Position numbers and translations under genes: made by a program
Notes under the pieces: generated by a model
The model's database searches: none
What the model saw: the letters and a program-made list of their open reading frames with translations, nothing else
What the model was told of the DNA's origin: nothing
Part shown: positions 1,791 through 6,654 of the stretch, piece after piece
Layout of the letters: each line of letters starts with the position of its first letter
Position numbering within the stretch: the stretch's first letter is position 1
Source: an uncultured Verrucomicrobiota bacterium
GTDB lineage: Bacteria; Verrucomicrobiota; Kiritimatiellia; RFP12; UBA1067
Reading direction: 5' to 3'
NCBI GenBank assembly: GCA_946615275.1
Contig: CAMOHV010000062.1
Coordinates: 1-6,694 of the forward strand
Length of the DNA: 6,694 nt

Positions 1791-3077
1791 ATGGACATTT
1801 TCAAGATCGCGGCCACGGAAGATGGCCTGAGCGACGCGGAGATACGCGCCGCGCTGGAGGCGAGCCTCAAGGGGCGCCGCCTGAAGAAGGTGCTGGTGAT
1901 CCCGCCGGACTTCACGCGCTTCCACTCCAACGCCGGCTTCATCACGCAGGTCTACTACGAGATGCTGACGGCTCGCGGCGTGGAGGTGGACATCATGCCG
2001 GCCCTCGGCACGCACGTGCCCGTATCGGAAAGCCAGTGGAAGACCATGTTCGGGGCTATCCCTTACGAGAAGATGATCGTCCACAACTGGCGCACGGACG
2101 TCGTGAAGCTCGGCGAGGTGCCGGCCGACGAGGTGAAGGGCATCTCGGAGGGCCTCTGGACCGATCCCGTGAGCGTGGAGGTGAACCGCCGGATAATGGA
2201 CGAGTCGTACGACCTCATCATCTCCCCTGGCCAGGTGGTGCCGCACGAGGTTATCGGCATGGCCAACCACGCGAAGAACCTCTTCGTGGGGTGCGGCGGC
2301 AGCGACATGATAAACAAGTCGCACATGATCGGCGCGGTGTGCGGGATGGAGAAGGCGATGGGGCGCGACCACACGCCCGTCCGCCGCCTCTTCGACTACG
2401 CCTTCGAGCATTTCGTGGCGCAGCGCCCTATCCTCTGGGTGCTAACCGTGAACACCGCCCCCGGCGGCAGGATACATTCGCACGGCCTCTTCATCGGAGA
2501 GGGCCGCAACTGCCTCACAGAGGCCGTGAAGCTCGCCCAGCAGAAGAACATCGACTACGTGGAGACCGGCATCAGGAAGTGCGTCGTGTACCTTGAGCCT
2601 TCCGAGTTCACCAGCACATGGCTCGGCAACAAGGCCATCTACCGCACGCGCATGGCGATGGCGGACGGCGGGGAGCTGATAGTGCTCGCCCCCGGCGTGC
2701 ACACGTTCGGCGAGGACAAGGCGGTGGACGCGCTCATCCGCAAGTACGGCTACAAGGGCCGCCTCCACACGCTTGAGGTGTTCAAGAGCCCGGAGGCCGG
2801 GGACCTTCGCGAGAACATGGGCGCCGCCGCGCATCTCATCCACGGCTCCTCGGACGGACGCTTCTCCATCACCTACTGCGTGAAGAACATCTCCAAGGCC
2901 GAGGTGGAGGGCGTGGGCTTCAAGGCGGCGGACTACGACGAGATGACGGCGAAGTACGACCCCGAGAAGCTCAAGTACGGCTACAACACCGTCGACGGCG
3001 AGGAGATATACTTCATCCCCAACCCCGCCCTCGGCCTCTGGATCAACCGCGAGCGTTTCGCAGGATCGAAAGACTGA
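1791..3077 (+). CDS. LarA-family nickel-dependent 2-hydroxyacid racemase/epimerase
   Basis: A 428-residue protein of usual LarA (DUF2088) length. LarA enzymes invert the alpha-carbon of a 2-hydroxy acid by transient hydride transfer to a nickel-pincer nucleotide bound to a lysine. The spacing of active-site residues matches Lactobacillus plantarum LarA: D40 and R43 in PDFTRF (Asp72, Arg75), H75 in ALGTH (His108), H152 in VVPHEV (His174), K162 (cofactor-bound Lys184) and H178 (nickel ligand His200). The intervals H152-K162 (10) and H152-H178 (26) are identical to those of LarA. The enzyme should therefore be active if the cofactor is supplied. No signal peptide is seen, so it is cytoplasmic. 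The substrate is unknown: the superfamily covers lactate, malate, aromatic hydroxyacids and sugar acids, and the neighbourhood does not suggest simple lactate metabolism. The cofactor genes larB, larC and larE are absent here. Start set by the SD at 1778-1784. Confidence 0.9.
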   Translation: MDIFKIAATEDGLSDAEIRAALEASLKGRRLKKVLVIPPDFTRFHSNAGFITQVYYEMLTARGVEVDIMPALGTHVPVSESQWKTMFGAIPYEKMIVHNWRTDVVKLGEVPADEVKGISEGLWTDPVSVEVNRRIMDESYDLIISPGQVVPHEVIGMANHAKNLFVGCGGSDMINKSHMIGAVCGMEKAMGRDHTPVRRLFDYAFEHFVAQRPILWVLTVNTAPGGRIHSHGLFIGEGRNCLTEAVKLAQQKNIDYVETGIRKCVVYLEPSEFTSTWLGNKAIYRTRMAMADGGELIVLAPGVHTFGEDKAVDALIRKYGYKGRLHTLEVFKSPEAGDLRENMGAAAHLIHGSSDGRFSITYCVKNISKAEVEGVGFKAADYDEMTAKYDPEKLKYGYNTVDGEEIYFIPNPALGLWINRERFAGSKD

Positions 3078-3111: not shown

Positions 3112-3195
3112 GAACCACGGAACACACAGAATACACGGAAATATGTCTGGAGCAAGAAATTATGCTTCAGGGTTTTCCGTGGTATTCAGCGGTTC
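3112..3195. repeat. Long imperfect hairpin, likely a dispersed intergenic palindromic repeat
   Basis: The left arm is GAATACACGGAAA (3129-3141) and the right arm TTTCCGTGGTATTC (3174-3187), pairing over 13 bp with one bulged G. Outer bases GAACC (3112-3116) and GGTTC (3191-3195) also pair. An inner stem, CTGGAGCA (3147-3154) with TGCTTCAG (3163-3170), forms with one G-U pair and an 8-base loop. The arms consist of the 'AACCACGGAACACA...ATACACGGAA' type of sequence, which I recall as common in intergenic repeats of many bacteria. No T-run follows, so it is not a classical terminator. It occupies most of the 142-bp gap and ends 24 bp before the DUF362 start. A weak promoter-like pair (TTGCAA 3083-3088, TTTTAT 3106-3111) precedes it. 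Confidence 0.55.
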
Positions 3196-3219: not shown

Positions 3220-4338
3220 ATGAAACAGCCAACAGTGTATTTCGCGGACTTCCGCTGCTCGGACAGCGAGAACCTCCAGCAGAAGTTCACCCGCCTCCTC
3301 AAGACGGCGGGCATGGGGAAGATCGACTTCCAGGACCGCTTCGCCGCCATCAAGCTGCACTTCGGCGAGGCCGGGAACATGAGCTACCTCCGCCCCAACT
3401 GGGCGAAGACCGTGGCGGACTTCGTGAAGGAGCGCGGCGGCCGCCCGTTCCTCACGGACTGCAACACCCTCTACGTGGGCCAGCGCAAGCACGCCCTCGA
3501 CCACATATCCATCGCCTACGAGAACGGCTTCTCGCCTTTCTCGACGGGCTGCCACGTGATAATCGGCGACGGGCTCAAGGGCACGGACGACGTGGCCGTG
3601 CCGCTCCCTGACGGCAAATACGTCAAGGAGGCGTTCATCGGCCGGACGATAGCCGACGCCGACGTCATCATCTCCCTCACCCACTTCAAGTGCCACGAGA
3701 TGACCGGCATCGGCGGCGCCTTGAAGAACCTCGGCATGGGCTGCGGCTCGCGCGCGGGGAAGAAGTCCATGCACTCGTCGGTCCATCCGGAGATCGACGC
3801 CAAGAACTGCATCGGCTGCGGCAAGTGCACGCGCGAGTGCGCGCACGGGGCGTGCACGCTCGTGAAGGGCGCGGACGGCAGACGAGTGGCCGCGATCGAC
3901 GCCGCGAAGTGCGTCGGGTGCGGGCGCTGCATCGGCGCGTGTAACCGCGACGCCGTGCAGAGCGACTTCGGCGAGCCGTGCACGGCTGTGCAGGGGAAGA
4001 TCGCCGAGTACGCCGCGGCGGTGGTGCGCGGGAAGCCCGCGTTCCACATATCGCTCGTGTGTGACGTGTCGCCGCACTGCGACTGCCACCCGATGAACGA
4101 CGCGCCGCTGGTGGCGGACATCGGGATGCTGGCGTCTGCCGACCCCGTCGCGCTCGACAAGGCGTGCGCCGACCTCTGCAACGCCGCGCCGGTCTTGCCG
4201 GGATGCTGCCTTGAGGGCGTGGACACGCACGGCGACCTCTTCACGACCATGCACCCCTACACCCGCTGGCAGGACGCCATTGCCGAGGGCGAGCGCATGA
4301 AGCTGGGCTCCGCCGAATACGTCCTGCGCCGAATCTGA
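3220..4338 (+). CDS. DUF362 domain protein with two [4Fe-4S] ferredoxin motifs
   Basis: A 372-residue protein. The N-terminal part (about 5-185) and C-terminal part (about 270-325) show typical DUF362 phrases: HFKCHEMTGIGGALKNLGMG (155-174), followed by CGSRAGKKSMH, and CDCHPMNDAPLVADIGMLAS (287-306), followed by ADPVALDKA. Inserted between them is a two-cluster ferredoxin segment: C197, C200, C203, C207 and C231, C234, C237, C241, both CxxCxxCxxxC. The usual proline after the last Cys is replaced by Ala and Asn. Further cysteines lie in the DUF362 part (C111, C158, C175, C281, C287, C289, C320, C329, C330). No signal peptide or membrane segment. DUF362 proteins have no settled biochemical role; a cytoplasmic electron-transfer or iron-sulfur redox function in an anaerobe is the reasonable inference. 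An in-frame TGA at 3211-3213 makes ATG 3220 the earliest possible start; no SD precedes it, only an A-rich stretch. Confidence 0.93.
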   Translation: MKQPTVYFADFRCSDSENLQQKFTRLLKTAGMGKIDFQDRFAAIKLHFGEAGNMSYLRPNWAKTVADFVKERGGRPFLTDCNTLYVGQRKHALDHISIAYENGFSPFSTGCHVIIGDGLKGTDDVAVPLPDGKYVKEAFIGRTIADADVIISLTHFKCHEMTGIGGALKNLGMGCGSRAGKKSMHSSVHPEIDAKNCIGCGKCTRECAHGACTLVKGADGRRVAAIDAAKCVGCGRCIGACNRDAVQSDFGEPCTAVQGKIAEYAAAVVRGKPAFHISLVCDVSPHCDCHPMNDAPLVADIGMLASADPVALDKACADLCNAAPVLPGCCLEGVDTHGDLFTTMHPYTRWQDAIAEGERMKLGSAEYVLRRI

Positions 4339-4340
4339 CG

Positions 4341-4403
4341 CATTTTCAAAATTCAAAAAACTCATTTTGCCCCCTTGTCAGGCGCAACGGCTTTTGATAT
4401 ACT
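4341..4403 (+). promoter_or_regulatory. Near-consensus sigma-70 promoter with UP-like A/T tract
   Basis: TTGTCA (-35, 4375-4380) and TATACT (-10, 4398-4403) each differ from consensus at one base and are separated by exactly 17 bp. TGA directly before the -10 gives an extended -10 (TGN). An A/T-rich stretch with an A6 run (4341-4368) lies where an UP element would be. This is the best promoter in the window and fits the strong output needed for a stable RNA. Predicted transcription start is about 4409-4412. Confidence 0.8.
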
Positions 4404-4411
4404 ATCCCGCC

Positions 4412-4510
4412 ATGGGACAACAACTTAGAGTACGCGCCAAGAGAGCACGCCGGAAAGCGCATGACAAGCGCCTCCGCGCGAAGATCTATGCGGCGAAGAA
4501 GGCGAAGTGA
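4412..4510 (+). CDS. 32-residue highly basic small protein, leaderless or nearly so
   Basis: The ORF starts at ATG 4412 and stops at TGA 4508-4510. The product begins MGQQLRVRAKRARRKAH and ends IYAAKKAK, with 7 Arg and 7 Lys in 32 residues, one acidic residue and no Cys. It should be one helix that binds nucleic acid; a small ribosome-associated or RNA-binding protein is plausible, but I cannot name a family. The predicted transcription start falls 0-3 bases before the ATG, and there is no SD, so translation would be leaderless. The first codons (GGA CAA CAA CTT AGA) are AT-richer than the rest, as expected for an unstructured start. It lies 10 bp before tRNA-Cys and should share its transcript. 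The alternative is that the segment is only a tRNA leader; the immediate ATG, absence of internal stops and strong compositional bias favour a real gene. Confidence 0.6.
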   Translation: MGQQLRVRAKRARRKAHDKRLRAKIYAAKKAK

Positions 4511-4520
4511 GCCTTAATAA

Positions 4521-4594
4521 GGTGGGATGGCCGAGCGGTTAGGCTACGGACTGCAAATCCGTCTACAGCGGTTCAACTCCGCTTCCCACCTCCA
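4521..4594 (+). tRNA. tRNA-Cys (GCA), CCA encoded
   Basis: A full cloverleaf can be drawn. The acceptor stem GGTGGGA (4521-4527) pairs with TCCCACC (4584-4590), 7 of 7. D stem: GCC (4530-4532) with GGC (4542-4544). Anticodon stem: ACGGA (4546-4550) with TCCGT (4558-4562), loop CTGCAAA, anticodon GCA at 4553-4555. T stem: AGCGG (4567-4571) with CCGCT (4579-4583), loop TTCAACT. The discriminator base is T4591, the expected U73 identity base for cysteine, and CCA is encoded at 4592-4594. It appears functional. Confidence 0.97.
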
Positions 4595-4635: not shown

Positions 4636-4665
4636 TTCCGCCGGAGCACGGCGGAATGTTTTTTT
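4636..4665 (+). terminator. Rho-independent terminator of the small-ORF/tRNA-Cys unit
   Basis: TTCCGCCG (4636-4643) pairs perfectly with CGGCGGAA (4649-4656) over a 5-base loop, followed by TG and a run of seven T (4659-4665). It ends only 9 bases before the SD of the next gene, so that gene needs either its own promoter or readthrough. Confidence 0.88.
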
Positions 4666-4686: not shown

Positions 4687-6654
4687 ATGTCAAGGACGGT
4701 TATGGCACTTTGCGCGGTGGCGTTCTGCGCGGCGGCGCTGGCGGAGTGTCCGCAGTGGATATCGGTGATGCCGCTGAAGGGCGAGTGCGCCGAGGAGCTG
4801 GCGAAGGATTCGGCCGACCTGGGCGAGACGACGTTTGTGGACGGCATAGCGTGGTGCTGCGCGCTGCACCCCGAGGGGGACCCCGTAGCCGACCGCGCGG
4901 CGATATACGCCGAAGCCTACCGCAAGGTGGCGCCGCGCCTGAAGTCGCTCTCGTCCGTCAAGCAGGGCATCCTCCTGCAGGCCACGATGGGCCACGGAGG
5001 CCGACCCGGCTCGCCGACGCCGTGGCAGCTCACCGTGCAGAGGGACGGCAAGAGCGTCTACAGGATGTGCCCGATGGACCCCAGGTTCCTCGACTACATC
5101 GCGCGCACATGCCGCACGCTATCGGCCCTCAAGCCCGACTTCTTCATGGTGGACGACGACACGCGCATGATCTGGGGCGGCGTGCCGGGATGCTTCTGCC
5201 CCCTCCACCTGGCGGCCTTCGCGAAGCGGACGGGGCGCGGCTGGACGCGCGAGGAGGTGGCGAAGATGCTCGCCTCGGGCGACGCCAGGATGTCGGCGGA
5301 GTGGGAGGCGGTGAAGGTGGACTCCCTCAAGCGGTTCTTCCAGACGATACGCGGCAACTTCCCGCCGGAGGTGCCTGGGATGCTGTGCGTGGTGACGGAT
5401 CCGTGCCACCTCAGGCACGCGCGCGAATTCGCGCAGATCCTCGCCGCGCCGGGCCAGACGCCCGTGATACGCGGCGGCGGGGCGCCGTACCATGGCTACG
5501 GGAAGGACCTCTTCCACGTGGTGGACATGCGCGCGGCGTACGCCAGGCAGATGGAGATGGTCGGCGGGGGCGTCGTGTACATGCAGGAGGCGGACACATG
5601 TCCGCAGACCCTCTGGGCGACGAGCGCCGCGCGCATGTACGACCATATCGTGATGCTGGCGCTCGATGGCTTCAAGGGCGCGAAGATGTGGATCACGCGC
5701 ACCGGCAACTACCATGAGAAGCGCTCCGCCGAGGCGTACAGGCGCATCTTGCGCGAGAACAAGGGGCTCATGGAGTGGGCGGCGAAGGTGGACTTCGCGC
5801 AGCGCGGCGTGGTGGTGCCGGCGTGCGGGCCGGTCAAGCGCAGCTTCGGCGACAGCTACCTGGCGCTCGTCGGCATCCCGTACAGGTTCGGCAAGGCGCG
5901 ACCGGGAGAAGTAACGGCGCTCACGGCCAGCACCCTTGCGCTGCTCCCCCCGGACGAGATACGCGCCATCCTCGCGGGCGCAGTGATCGCCGACGGCTCC
6001 GCCGCGCTCTGGCTGGTGAAGAACGGATATTCCGCCGACATAGGCGCGGCGGCGAAGCCGTGGGGCCGGGGCACGGTCCAGATGCACGAATTCGAGGATG
6101 GATTCCGCCAGGCCGGGGTAGGGAGGGGGGGCTTCGCCGACCTCTCCGACCTCGCGCCGGGCGCAAGGGCGCTGACGCGCCTGCTGAATCTTCCGCGCAT
6201 GGGCGACGATGTGGTGTGCATCGCGCCGGGCAGCACGCTCTTCTCCAATGCGCGAGGCGGCAAAGTGCTTCTCATGGCGCAGCCCCTGCCGCCGCAGATG
6301 CCGGTCTACTACGAGGCGGTCCTCTTCTCCGAACGCTGCAGGGACGAGATTGCGAATTGGCTGGCGCTGCTCGCGGGCGGCATCCCGGGGGGCGTGCGCT
6401 ATCTTGGGGTGGGCCCGACGATGTGCGAGGCGGGGACGATGGGTGAAGGGGAGAACGTGTTCGTCCTGAACATGCTCGACCTCGACGGCGACGACGCGCC
6501 GGAGATGGAGTTCGACGCGGCGCCGTCCTCCATCGAGCGGCTTCAGGGCGACGGCGCGTGGAGGGCGGTCGCGTTCGAGCGCGTCGGCGGCAAGGGCGTG
6601 AGGCTGCAAAGCCCCGTACTGCCGCAGCGCCCCGCCATATTCCGCTGGAGGTGA
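4687..6654 (+). CDS. Secreted glycoside-hydrolase-like (TIM-barrel plus amidotransferase-like domain) protein
   Basis: 655 residues from the SD-supported ATG. Residues 1-19 form a Sec signal peptide (hydrophobic MALCAVAFCAAALA, cleavage after A19 in ALA-E), so the protein is exported. Residues 22-370 read as a TIM barrel. The strand ending FFMVDDDTRM (152-161) with GCFCPLHL (168-175), and VYMQEADTCPQT (297-308) followed by a helix and AKMWITRTGNY, resemble the hypothetical glycosidase family common in Lentisphaerota and gut bacteria, related in shape to GH42-type beta-galactosidases. D156-D158 and E301 are the best catalytic candidates, by inference. Residues about 386-500 (GDSYLALVGIPYRF, then TLALLPPDEIRAIL) look like the degraded class-I amidotransferase-like domain that follows such barrels; a beta-rich tail follows. 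The barrel is unusually rich in Cys for an exported protein. Substrate unknown. No clear promoter lies between the upstream terminator and the SD. Confidence 0.88.
   Translation: MSRTVMALCAVAFCAAALAECPQWISVMPLKGECAEELAKDSADLGETTFVDGIAWCCALHPEGDPVADRAAIYAEAYRKVAPRLKSLSSVKQGILLQATMGHGGRPGSPTPWQLTVQRDGKSVYRMCPMDPRFLDYIARTCRTLSALKPDFFMVDDDTRMIWGGVPGCFCPLHLAAFAKRTGRGWTREEVAKMLASGDARMSAEWEAVKVDSLKRFFQTIRGNFPPEVPGMLCVVTDPCHLRHAREFAQILAAPGQTPVIRGGGAPYHGYGKDLFHVVDMRAAYARQMEMVGGGVVYMQEADTCPQTLWATSAARMYDHIVMLALDGFKGAKMWITRTGNYHEKRSAEAYRRILRENKGLMEWAAKVDFAQRGVVVPACGPVKRSFGDSYLALVGIPYRFGKARPGEVTALTASTLALLPPDEIRAILAGAVIADGSAALWLVKNGYSADIGAAAKPWGRGTVQMHEFEDGFRQAGVGRGGFADLSDLAPGARALTRLLNLPRMGDDVVCIAPGSTLFSNARGGKVLLMAQPLPPQMPVYYEAVLFSERCRDEIANWLALLAGGIPGGVRYLGVGPTMCEAGTMGEGENVFVLNMLDLDGDDAPEMEFDAAPSSIERLQGDGAWRAVAFERVGGKGVRLQSPVLPQRPAIFRWR

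Follow-up and report, generated by a model that had tools for sequence, protein, structure and literature searches.

A conserved small basic ORF between a promoter and tRNA-Cys in Verrucomicrobiota: a probable leaderless mRNA–tRNA precursor

The DNA analysed here, referred to as the window, is a stretch of 6,694 nt from an uncultured Verrucomicrobiota bacterium (contig CAMOHV010000062.1, assembly GCA_946615275.1). Positions 1791–3077 encode a full-length nickel-pincer (LarA-type) enzyme that matched the NCBIfam model NF052594, 'putative hexonate epimerase' (619.8 bits; model cut-off 500), and the Shine-Dalgarno (SD) sequence AAAGGAG precedes its ATG. A DUF362 protein with two 4Fe-4S motifs follows (3220–4338), with relatives in Kiritimatiellae MAGs and Clostridia; the gap before its gene holds an imperfect 18-nt inverted repeat (3114–3183, 83% complementary, 34 nt between the arms). 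A 655-residue protein with a signal-peptide-like start is encoded at 4687–6654 behind a GGAGG SD sequence, and no Pfam match to it was found at E ≤ 1. Between the latter two genes lies the short unit considered here (Table 1), in which the ORF and tRNA-Cys are on the same strand, with no room for a promoter between them and a terminator-like hairpin after the tRNA.

Table 1. Elements of the promoter–ORF–tRNA-Cys unit in the window
Feature	Positions	Strand	Details or basis
Promoter	4375..4403	+	–35 TTGTCA 4375–4380, 17-nt spacer, –10 TATACT 4398–4403, TG at 4395–4396
Predicted transcription start	4409..4412	+	G4409 (3-nt leader) or A4412 (leader 0)
MGQQ-family ORF, 32 codons, 14 Lys/Arg, TGA included	4412..4510	+	conservation, pN/pS
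ORF–tRNA spacer, 10 nt; RNase P cut expected at 4520/4521	4511..4520	+	general tRNA biology
tRNA-Cys, anticodon GCA	4521..4594	+	ARAGORN; Rfam RF00005, 62 bits, match 4521–4591
Terminator-like hairpin (4636–4656) plus T-run	4636..4663	+	sequence

Translation of the ORF gives MGQQLRVRAKRARRKAHDKRLRAKIYAAKKAK, and the preliminary description of this DNA was correct in reporting 32 codons with 14 Lys/Arg that end 10 nt before tRNA-Cys. The tRNA gene has a genome-encoded CCA-like end, CCTCCA. The promoter matches the consensus at 10 of 12 positions with the TG present, and the ATG lies 8 nt past the end of the –10 TATACT. No SD sequence was found before this ATG. The two candidate transcription starts were predicted from the textbook distance to the –10 and the preference for a purine after a pyrimidine. 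Within the window by itself, a promoter match of this kind is no more than chance would give (one found, shuffle mean 1.1), so conservation in relatives must decide its significance. A 47-residue frame opening at TTG 4367 was rejected as a longer start since conservation begins at MGQQ.

Through the neighbouring DUF362 protein we found 12 contigs of close relatives (75–83% identity), titled Kiritimatiellae in three cases and otherwise Verrucomicrobia, Lentisphaerae or unnamed bacterium, several of them from ruminant samples. Ten of the 12 genomes encoded the ORF (E ≤ 7.8e-5). In all ten, a TG-extended TATACT or TAAACT ended 7–8 nt upstream of the start codon, and tRNA-Cys, the single such match in each genome, began 3–17 nt past the ORF stop. 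The two genomes without the ORF also had no tRNA-Cys match, which probably reflects assembly gaps. Synteny with the DUF362 gene was rejected, the DUF362 stretches of the 12 relatives containing no tRNA-Cys; the conserved unit is thus promoter, ORF and tRNA.

Among 10 linked sequences, pooled pN/pS was 0.34 in the ORF frame versus 0.78 and 1.68 in the other two frames, and the variable columns at codon positions 1, 2 and 3 numbered 13, 11 and 21 of 31. Judged by this substitution pattern, the ORF evolves like a protein-coding sequence. The preliminary description had proposed to look in relatives for conservation, synteny with tRNA-Cys and synonymous-rate bias, and had named the lack of a conserved ORF there as evidence against its reading; the ORF proved to be present in most of the close relatives, with conserved promoter spacing and tRNA-Cys linkage and a low pN/pS. 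The observation made in the window is confirmed as real, with conservation far beyond chance.

A family profile built from 58 rows matched 307 of 387 sampled genomes of the relatives' phylum (E ≤ 0.001), with a single match in each matching genome. In a second bacterial order, 28 of 31 genomes carried the family. Among the 58 members M1, K10 and R14 are invariant, and G2, Q3, Q4, R11 and R20 occur in at least 90%. The same profile gave no match at E ≤ 0.001 in 20 Clostridia genomes and 7/20 at E ≤ 1 (best 0.029); an earlier family profile had given matches in 3/20 (best E 0.0107). The first search round also yielded 83 weaker places (E 3.6e-5 to 0.0114), of which 80 were taken; G031, G044 and G334 were left out, the match in G044 beginning elsewhere than model position 1. 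At all 80, the ORF at the match started M-(G/S/T)-(Q/K)-(Q/N). A protein search with the family returned 479 proteins at E ≤ 1; the 120 of them that were listed were called 'hypothetical protein' where a name was given, and none of these 120 had a Pfam domain. Only weak, chance-like matches to NCBIfam and Pfam were obtained (PanM/PanZ, UbiU, UPF0542; best E 0.029), the PDB search gave no sequence at E ≤ 10, and there was no match to a model of any known small ribosomal protein family or to a ribosome chain in the PDB. Four family sequence strings were not found mentioned in the limited literature collection searched. On the evidence of these searches, the MGQQ family is a previously unnamed and unannotated, phylum-wide family, overlooked by annotation owing to its length of ~32 residues.

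This distribution bears on two other accounts of the ORF. That it arose by chance and has no function might be suspected from its extreme shortness, from the chance-level promoter match in the window and from a single-sequence protein search that returned one relative only; the recurrence in close relatives, in most of the phylum and in the second order, together with pN/pS, contradicts this account, to which we give practically no weight. A more serious possibility is that a genuine peptide, co-transcribed with tRNA-Cys, works as a protamine-like, general neutralizer of charge on DNA or RNA, like Tpr of the E. coli tyrT operon (see below), with no ribosomal role. The high Lys/Arg content, the precedent of a tRNA operon and the searches of Pfam, NCBIfam and PDB, in which homology to ribosomal proteins was not found, are compatible with such a function. 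The invariant and nearly invariant positions show more specificity than bulk charge should require, and the occurrence in 307 genomes also argues against it, so that we consider this account unlikely, yet the strongest of those set against our own.

We compared promoter placement and SD sequences across 116 family loci, of which 28 have tRNA-Cys directly downstream (gap 3–71 nt) and 88 are unlinked. Three further loci stand outside these counts: L099 (the same place as L084), and L112 and L114, both missed by the locus filter, L114 having an SD sequence and no tRNA. L112 (1160–1420, – strand) is a tRNA-Cys-linked copy with ATA at the start position, attributable to sequencing error, an unusual start or decay. 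The promoter criterion, a score of 9 plus the required TA, was chosen after the linked loci had been seen, with shuffles and 83 ordinary genes serving as controls. By this criterion, a promoter with its –10 ending 7–12 nt before the ATG was present at 27 of the 28 linked loci (1.0% of shuffles) and at 7 of the 88 unlinked loci (2.1% of shuffles). The linked exception, L103, has an SD sequence and no such promoter. Two of the seven unlinked loci, L162 and L181, carry an SD sequence as well; at the others (L144, L163, L197, L201 and L203) the promoter stands 9–10 nt before the ATG and no tRNA-Cys was found behind, representing a near-leaderless form without the tRNA. SD matches of at least 4 nt showed the opposite distribution, 2/28 linked versus 58/88 unlinked loci. 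Ordinary long genes of the relatives had a promoter at the first ATG in 3 of 83 cases; when all of the first five ATGs were considered, 5/83 had a promoter and 56/83 an SD sequence. PMC10783764 tabulates a value of 63 for Kiritimatiellae, which we take to mean that 63% of genes show an SD interaction.

Two promoter types could be distinguished among the linked loci. The window type, found at 13 loci, has a weaker –35 and a –10-to-ATG distance of 7–8 nt, from which a leader of 0–3 nt is predicted. The TTGACA type of the other linked loci has distances of 8–12 nt, mostly 10–12, and at 10–12 nt its predicted leader would be ~4–6 nt, not zero. Across 12 aligned loci the –10 and the TG are conserved, and an invariant C directly precedes the ATG. 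The spacing that would place +1 at the AUG is kept in relatives of the window, as the extended –10 promoter described earlier in front of the ATG is. The further claim, that transcription starts at or within about 3 bases of the ATG, holds up well for the window type, where promoter spacing gives good support to a predicted 5' end close to the start codon or exactly on it; the TTGACA-type relatives depart from it with their longer predicted leaders.

It might be argued instead that transcription begins further upstream, so that the ORF is translated behind a longer leader, and that the nearby promoter is chiefly for the tRNA. Read-through from the preceding gene, whose end is at 4338, is possible. 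This arrangement appears improbable, given that the ATG of the window has no SD sequence, that the 13 window-type loci hold the –10-to-ATG distance at 7–8 nt, and that nearly all linked loci have a promoter at the ATG versus 3 of 83 ordinary genes.

A terminator-like hairpin followed tRNA-Cys at 19 of 28 linked loci versus 49 of 560 shuffles. At 29 tRNA-Cys loci lacking the ORF (from 28 of 58 genomes), no ATGGGACA was found within 200 nt upstream of the tRNA, and an extended –10 was located 14–25 nt before the tRNA in 21/29. This indicates that the ORF sits between the usual kind of tRNA-Cys promoter and the tRNA. In some relatives without the ORF (L256, L258 and L274), tRNA-Cys comes last in a cluster of tRNA genes with the order Arg-Met-Pro-Cys.

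A position between promoter and tRNA would also suit a leader peptide or attenuator acting in cis on tRNA-Cys synthesis, its product being immaterial. In the window, the ORF contains no Cys codon, Rfam detects the tRNA alone and no T-box, and the RNA from 4411 to 4520 is not unusually structured (fold z –1.25); on these three grounds a Cys attenuator or T-box leader was rejected. One linked member, L124, does contain a Cys. With 88 of 116 family loci having no tRNA-Cys behind them as well, control of the tRNA in cis is a very improbable purpose of the ORF. By the same count, and because 58 of these 88 loci have an SD match, linkage to tRNA-Cys is, on genomic evidence, not required for the protein as such. 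Gene neighbourhoods gave no clue to the function; 11 unlinked loci have mixed neighbours. A YacP-like (NYN ribonuclease-like) frame stands just after the family gene at 2 of the 88 unlinked loci (L123 and L141).

At least two orders have retained the linkage. In the relatives' order, the ORF was found in 59 of 134 genomes and a tRNA-Cys match in 111/134. By coordinates, 42 of the 59 ORF genomes have the two adjacent, 11 have them apart and 6 have no tRNA match; in two of these six, G336 and G241, ARAGORN placed tRNA-Cys adjacent to the ORF. Another 58 of the 134 genomes have tRNA-Cys and no ORF match, and the protein is thus dispensable in those genomes. In the second order, four of whose genomes were already represented among the 116 loci, tRNA-Cys lay within 200 nt at 28 of 29 loci, the promoter was present at 23/29 (six fell below the promoter score), and an SD match of at least 4 nt occurred at 7/29, leaving 22 without one. 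One genome, G506, has two different family members (L351 and L368), each directly before its own tRNA-Cys, from either duplication or a mixed MAG.

An rpoB tree was built from 53 of 60 genomes (G473 and G100 gave no match, G453, G007 and G444 only short fragments, and G366 and G499, whose rows came from a wrong reading frame, were left out). Linked loci were distributed both outside and inside the order of the window's relatives. Genomes without the ORF formed one group of 5 and another of 10 (100/100 for both), plus one single genome, and the SD-led form was a clade of 8. At least four changes between linked and unlinked states are required on this tree, in which bootstrap support for the inner branches connecting the linked groups is 82–87%. 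The simplest reading of this history is an old linkage with at least two losses and one shift to the SD-led form; incomplete genomes can mimic loss. The ORF losses mean that the protein is not essential everywhere.

We propose that positions 4375 to ~4663 form one short transcription unit of promoter, ORF, tRNA-Cys and terminator. The strong extended –10 promoter would produce a leaderless mRNA with a leader of 0–3 nt, and the small mRNA and tRNA-Cys would share a primary transcript because the ORF lies between promoter and tRNA. Ribosomes would begin at the 5'-terminal AUG without an SD sequence. Since the 5' ends of tRNAs are generally made by RNase P, its cut at the tRNA 5' end would separate the mRNA from tRNA-Cys. 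The protein, predicted in the preliminary description to be made at tRNA-like levels by coupling to tRNA processing, would be a constitutive RNA-binding and probably ribosome-associated one. It is basic, has a fixed MGQQ start, is encoded once per genome and is widely present, which suggests that it binds RNA or the ribosome, a suggestion drawn from composition and distribution and not from homology or structure. We consider it probable that the model as a whole, a conserved leaderless mRNA/tRNA-Cys precursor encoding a cationic protein that probably binds RNA or ribosomes, is right; ribosome association specifically is close to an even call, leaning slightly against. The interpretation given in the preliminary description is to this extent partly supported. 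A further proposal, which we put forward tentatively and hold to be rather doubtful, is that the MGQQ protein is a phylum-specific ribosomal or ribosome-bound protein encoded as the first, leaderless cistron, so that one promoter would set the supply of both tRNA-Cys and a ribosome component, with RNase P separating them; the arrangement would be old in the class, and on at least two occasions it would have been lost when the ORF disappeared from its place in front of the tRNA, behind the promoter.

The analysis brings to light a protein family carried by most of the genomes sampled from its phylum, and the unit would be a conserved natural example in which a single transcript is both leaderless mRNA and tRNA precursor. 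Related genomes have the same protein behind an SD sequence, or have no protein and a tRNA-Cys with its own promoter, which makes the switch in the mode of translation start and the coupling of mRNA to tRNA directly testable. No description of such a dual-purpose transcript was found in the limited literature collection searched.

Parts of the unit resemble known systems. Very small basic ribosomal proteins such as bTHX and eL41 are, like the MGQQ protein, ~25–45 residues long, highly basic, encoded once per genome and restricted to lineages; the MGQQ family differs in that neither a Pfam or NCBIfam model of that kind nor any PDB chain matched it, and in being missing from part of one order. 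In the tyrT tRNA operon of E. coli, the small protamine-like ORF Tpr shares a transcript with tRNA, as reportedly described by Altman in 1981 and by Bosl and Kersten in 1991. Both systems thus combine a small, very basic ORF with a tRNA, and the window has the sequence features of a tyrT-tpr-like unit (same strand, no space for an intervening promoter, terminator-like hairpin). Tpr is reported to follow the tRNAs and not to be leaderless, whereas the window ORF comes first, at the promoter, and the MGQQ ORF is conserved across orders and, unlinked, through most of the phylum. With bacterial leaderless mRNAs (PMC4782308), the unit shares a lack of SD sequence and a 5' end at or a few bases from the AUG, the latter predicted here from spacing; its second cistron, unlike theirs, is a tRNA. 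That source puts mapped starts at annotated gene starts at 10% in Akkermansia, 15% in Bifidobacterium and 0.4% in E. coli, and Akkermansia is a relative in which leaderless starts are known. In mammalian mitochondrial tRNA punctuation (compare PMC5203842), RNase P parts mRNA from tRNA at the tRNA edge, as proposed for the window unit, and the mRNA has little or no leader. Mitochondria differ in processing one long polycistronic transcript, whereas the window unit would comprise one ORF and one tRNA, and the 5' end of its mRNA would come from the promoter rather than from removal of a tRNA.
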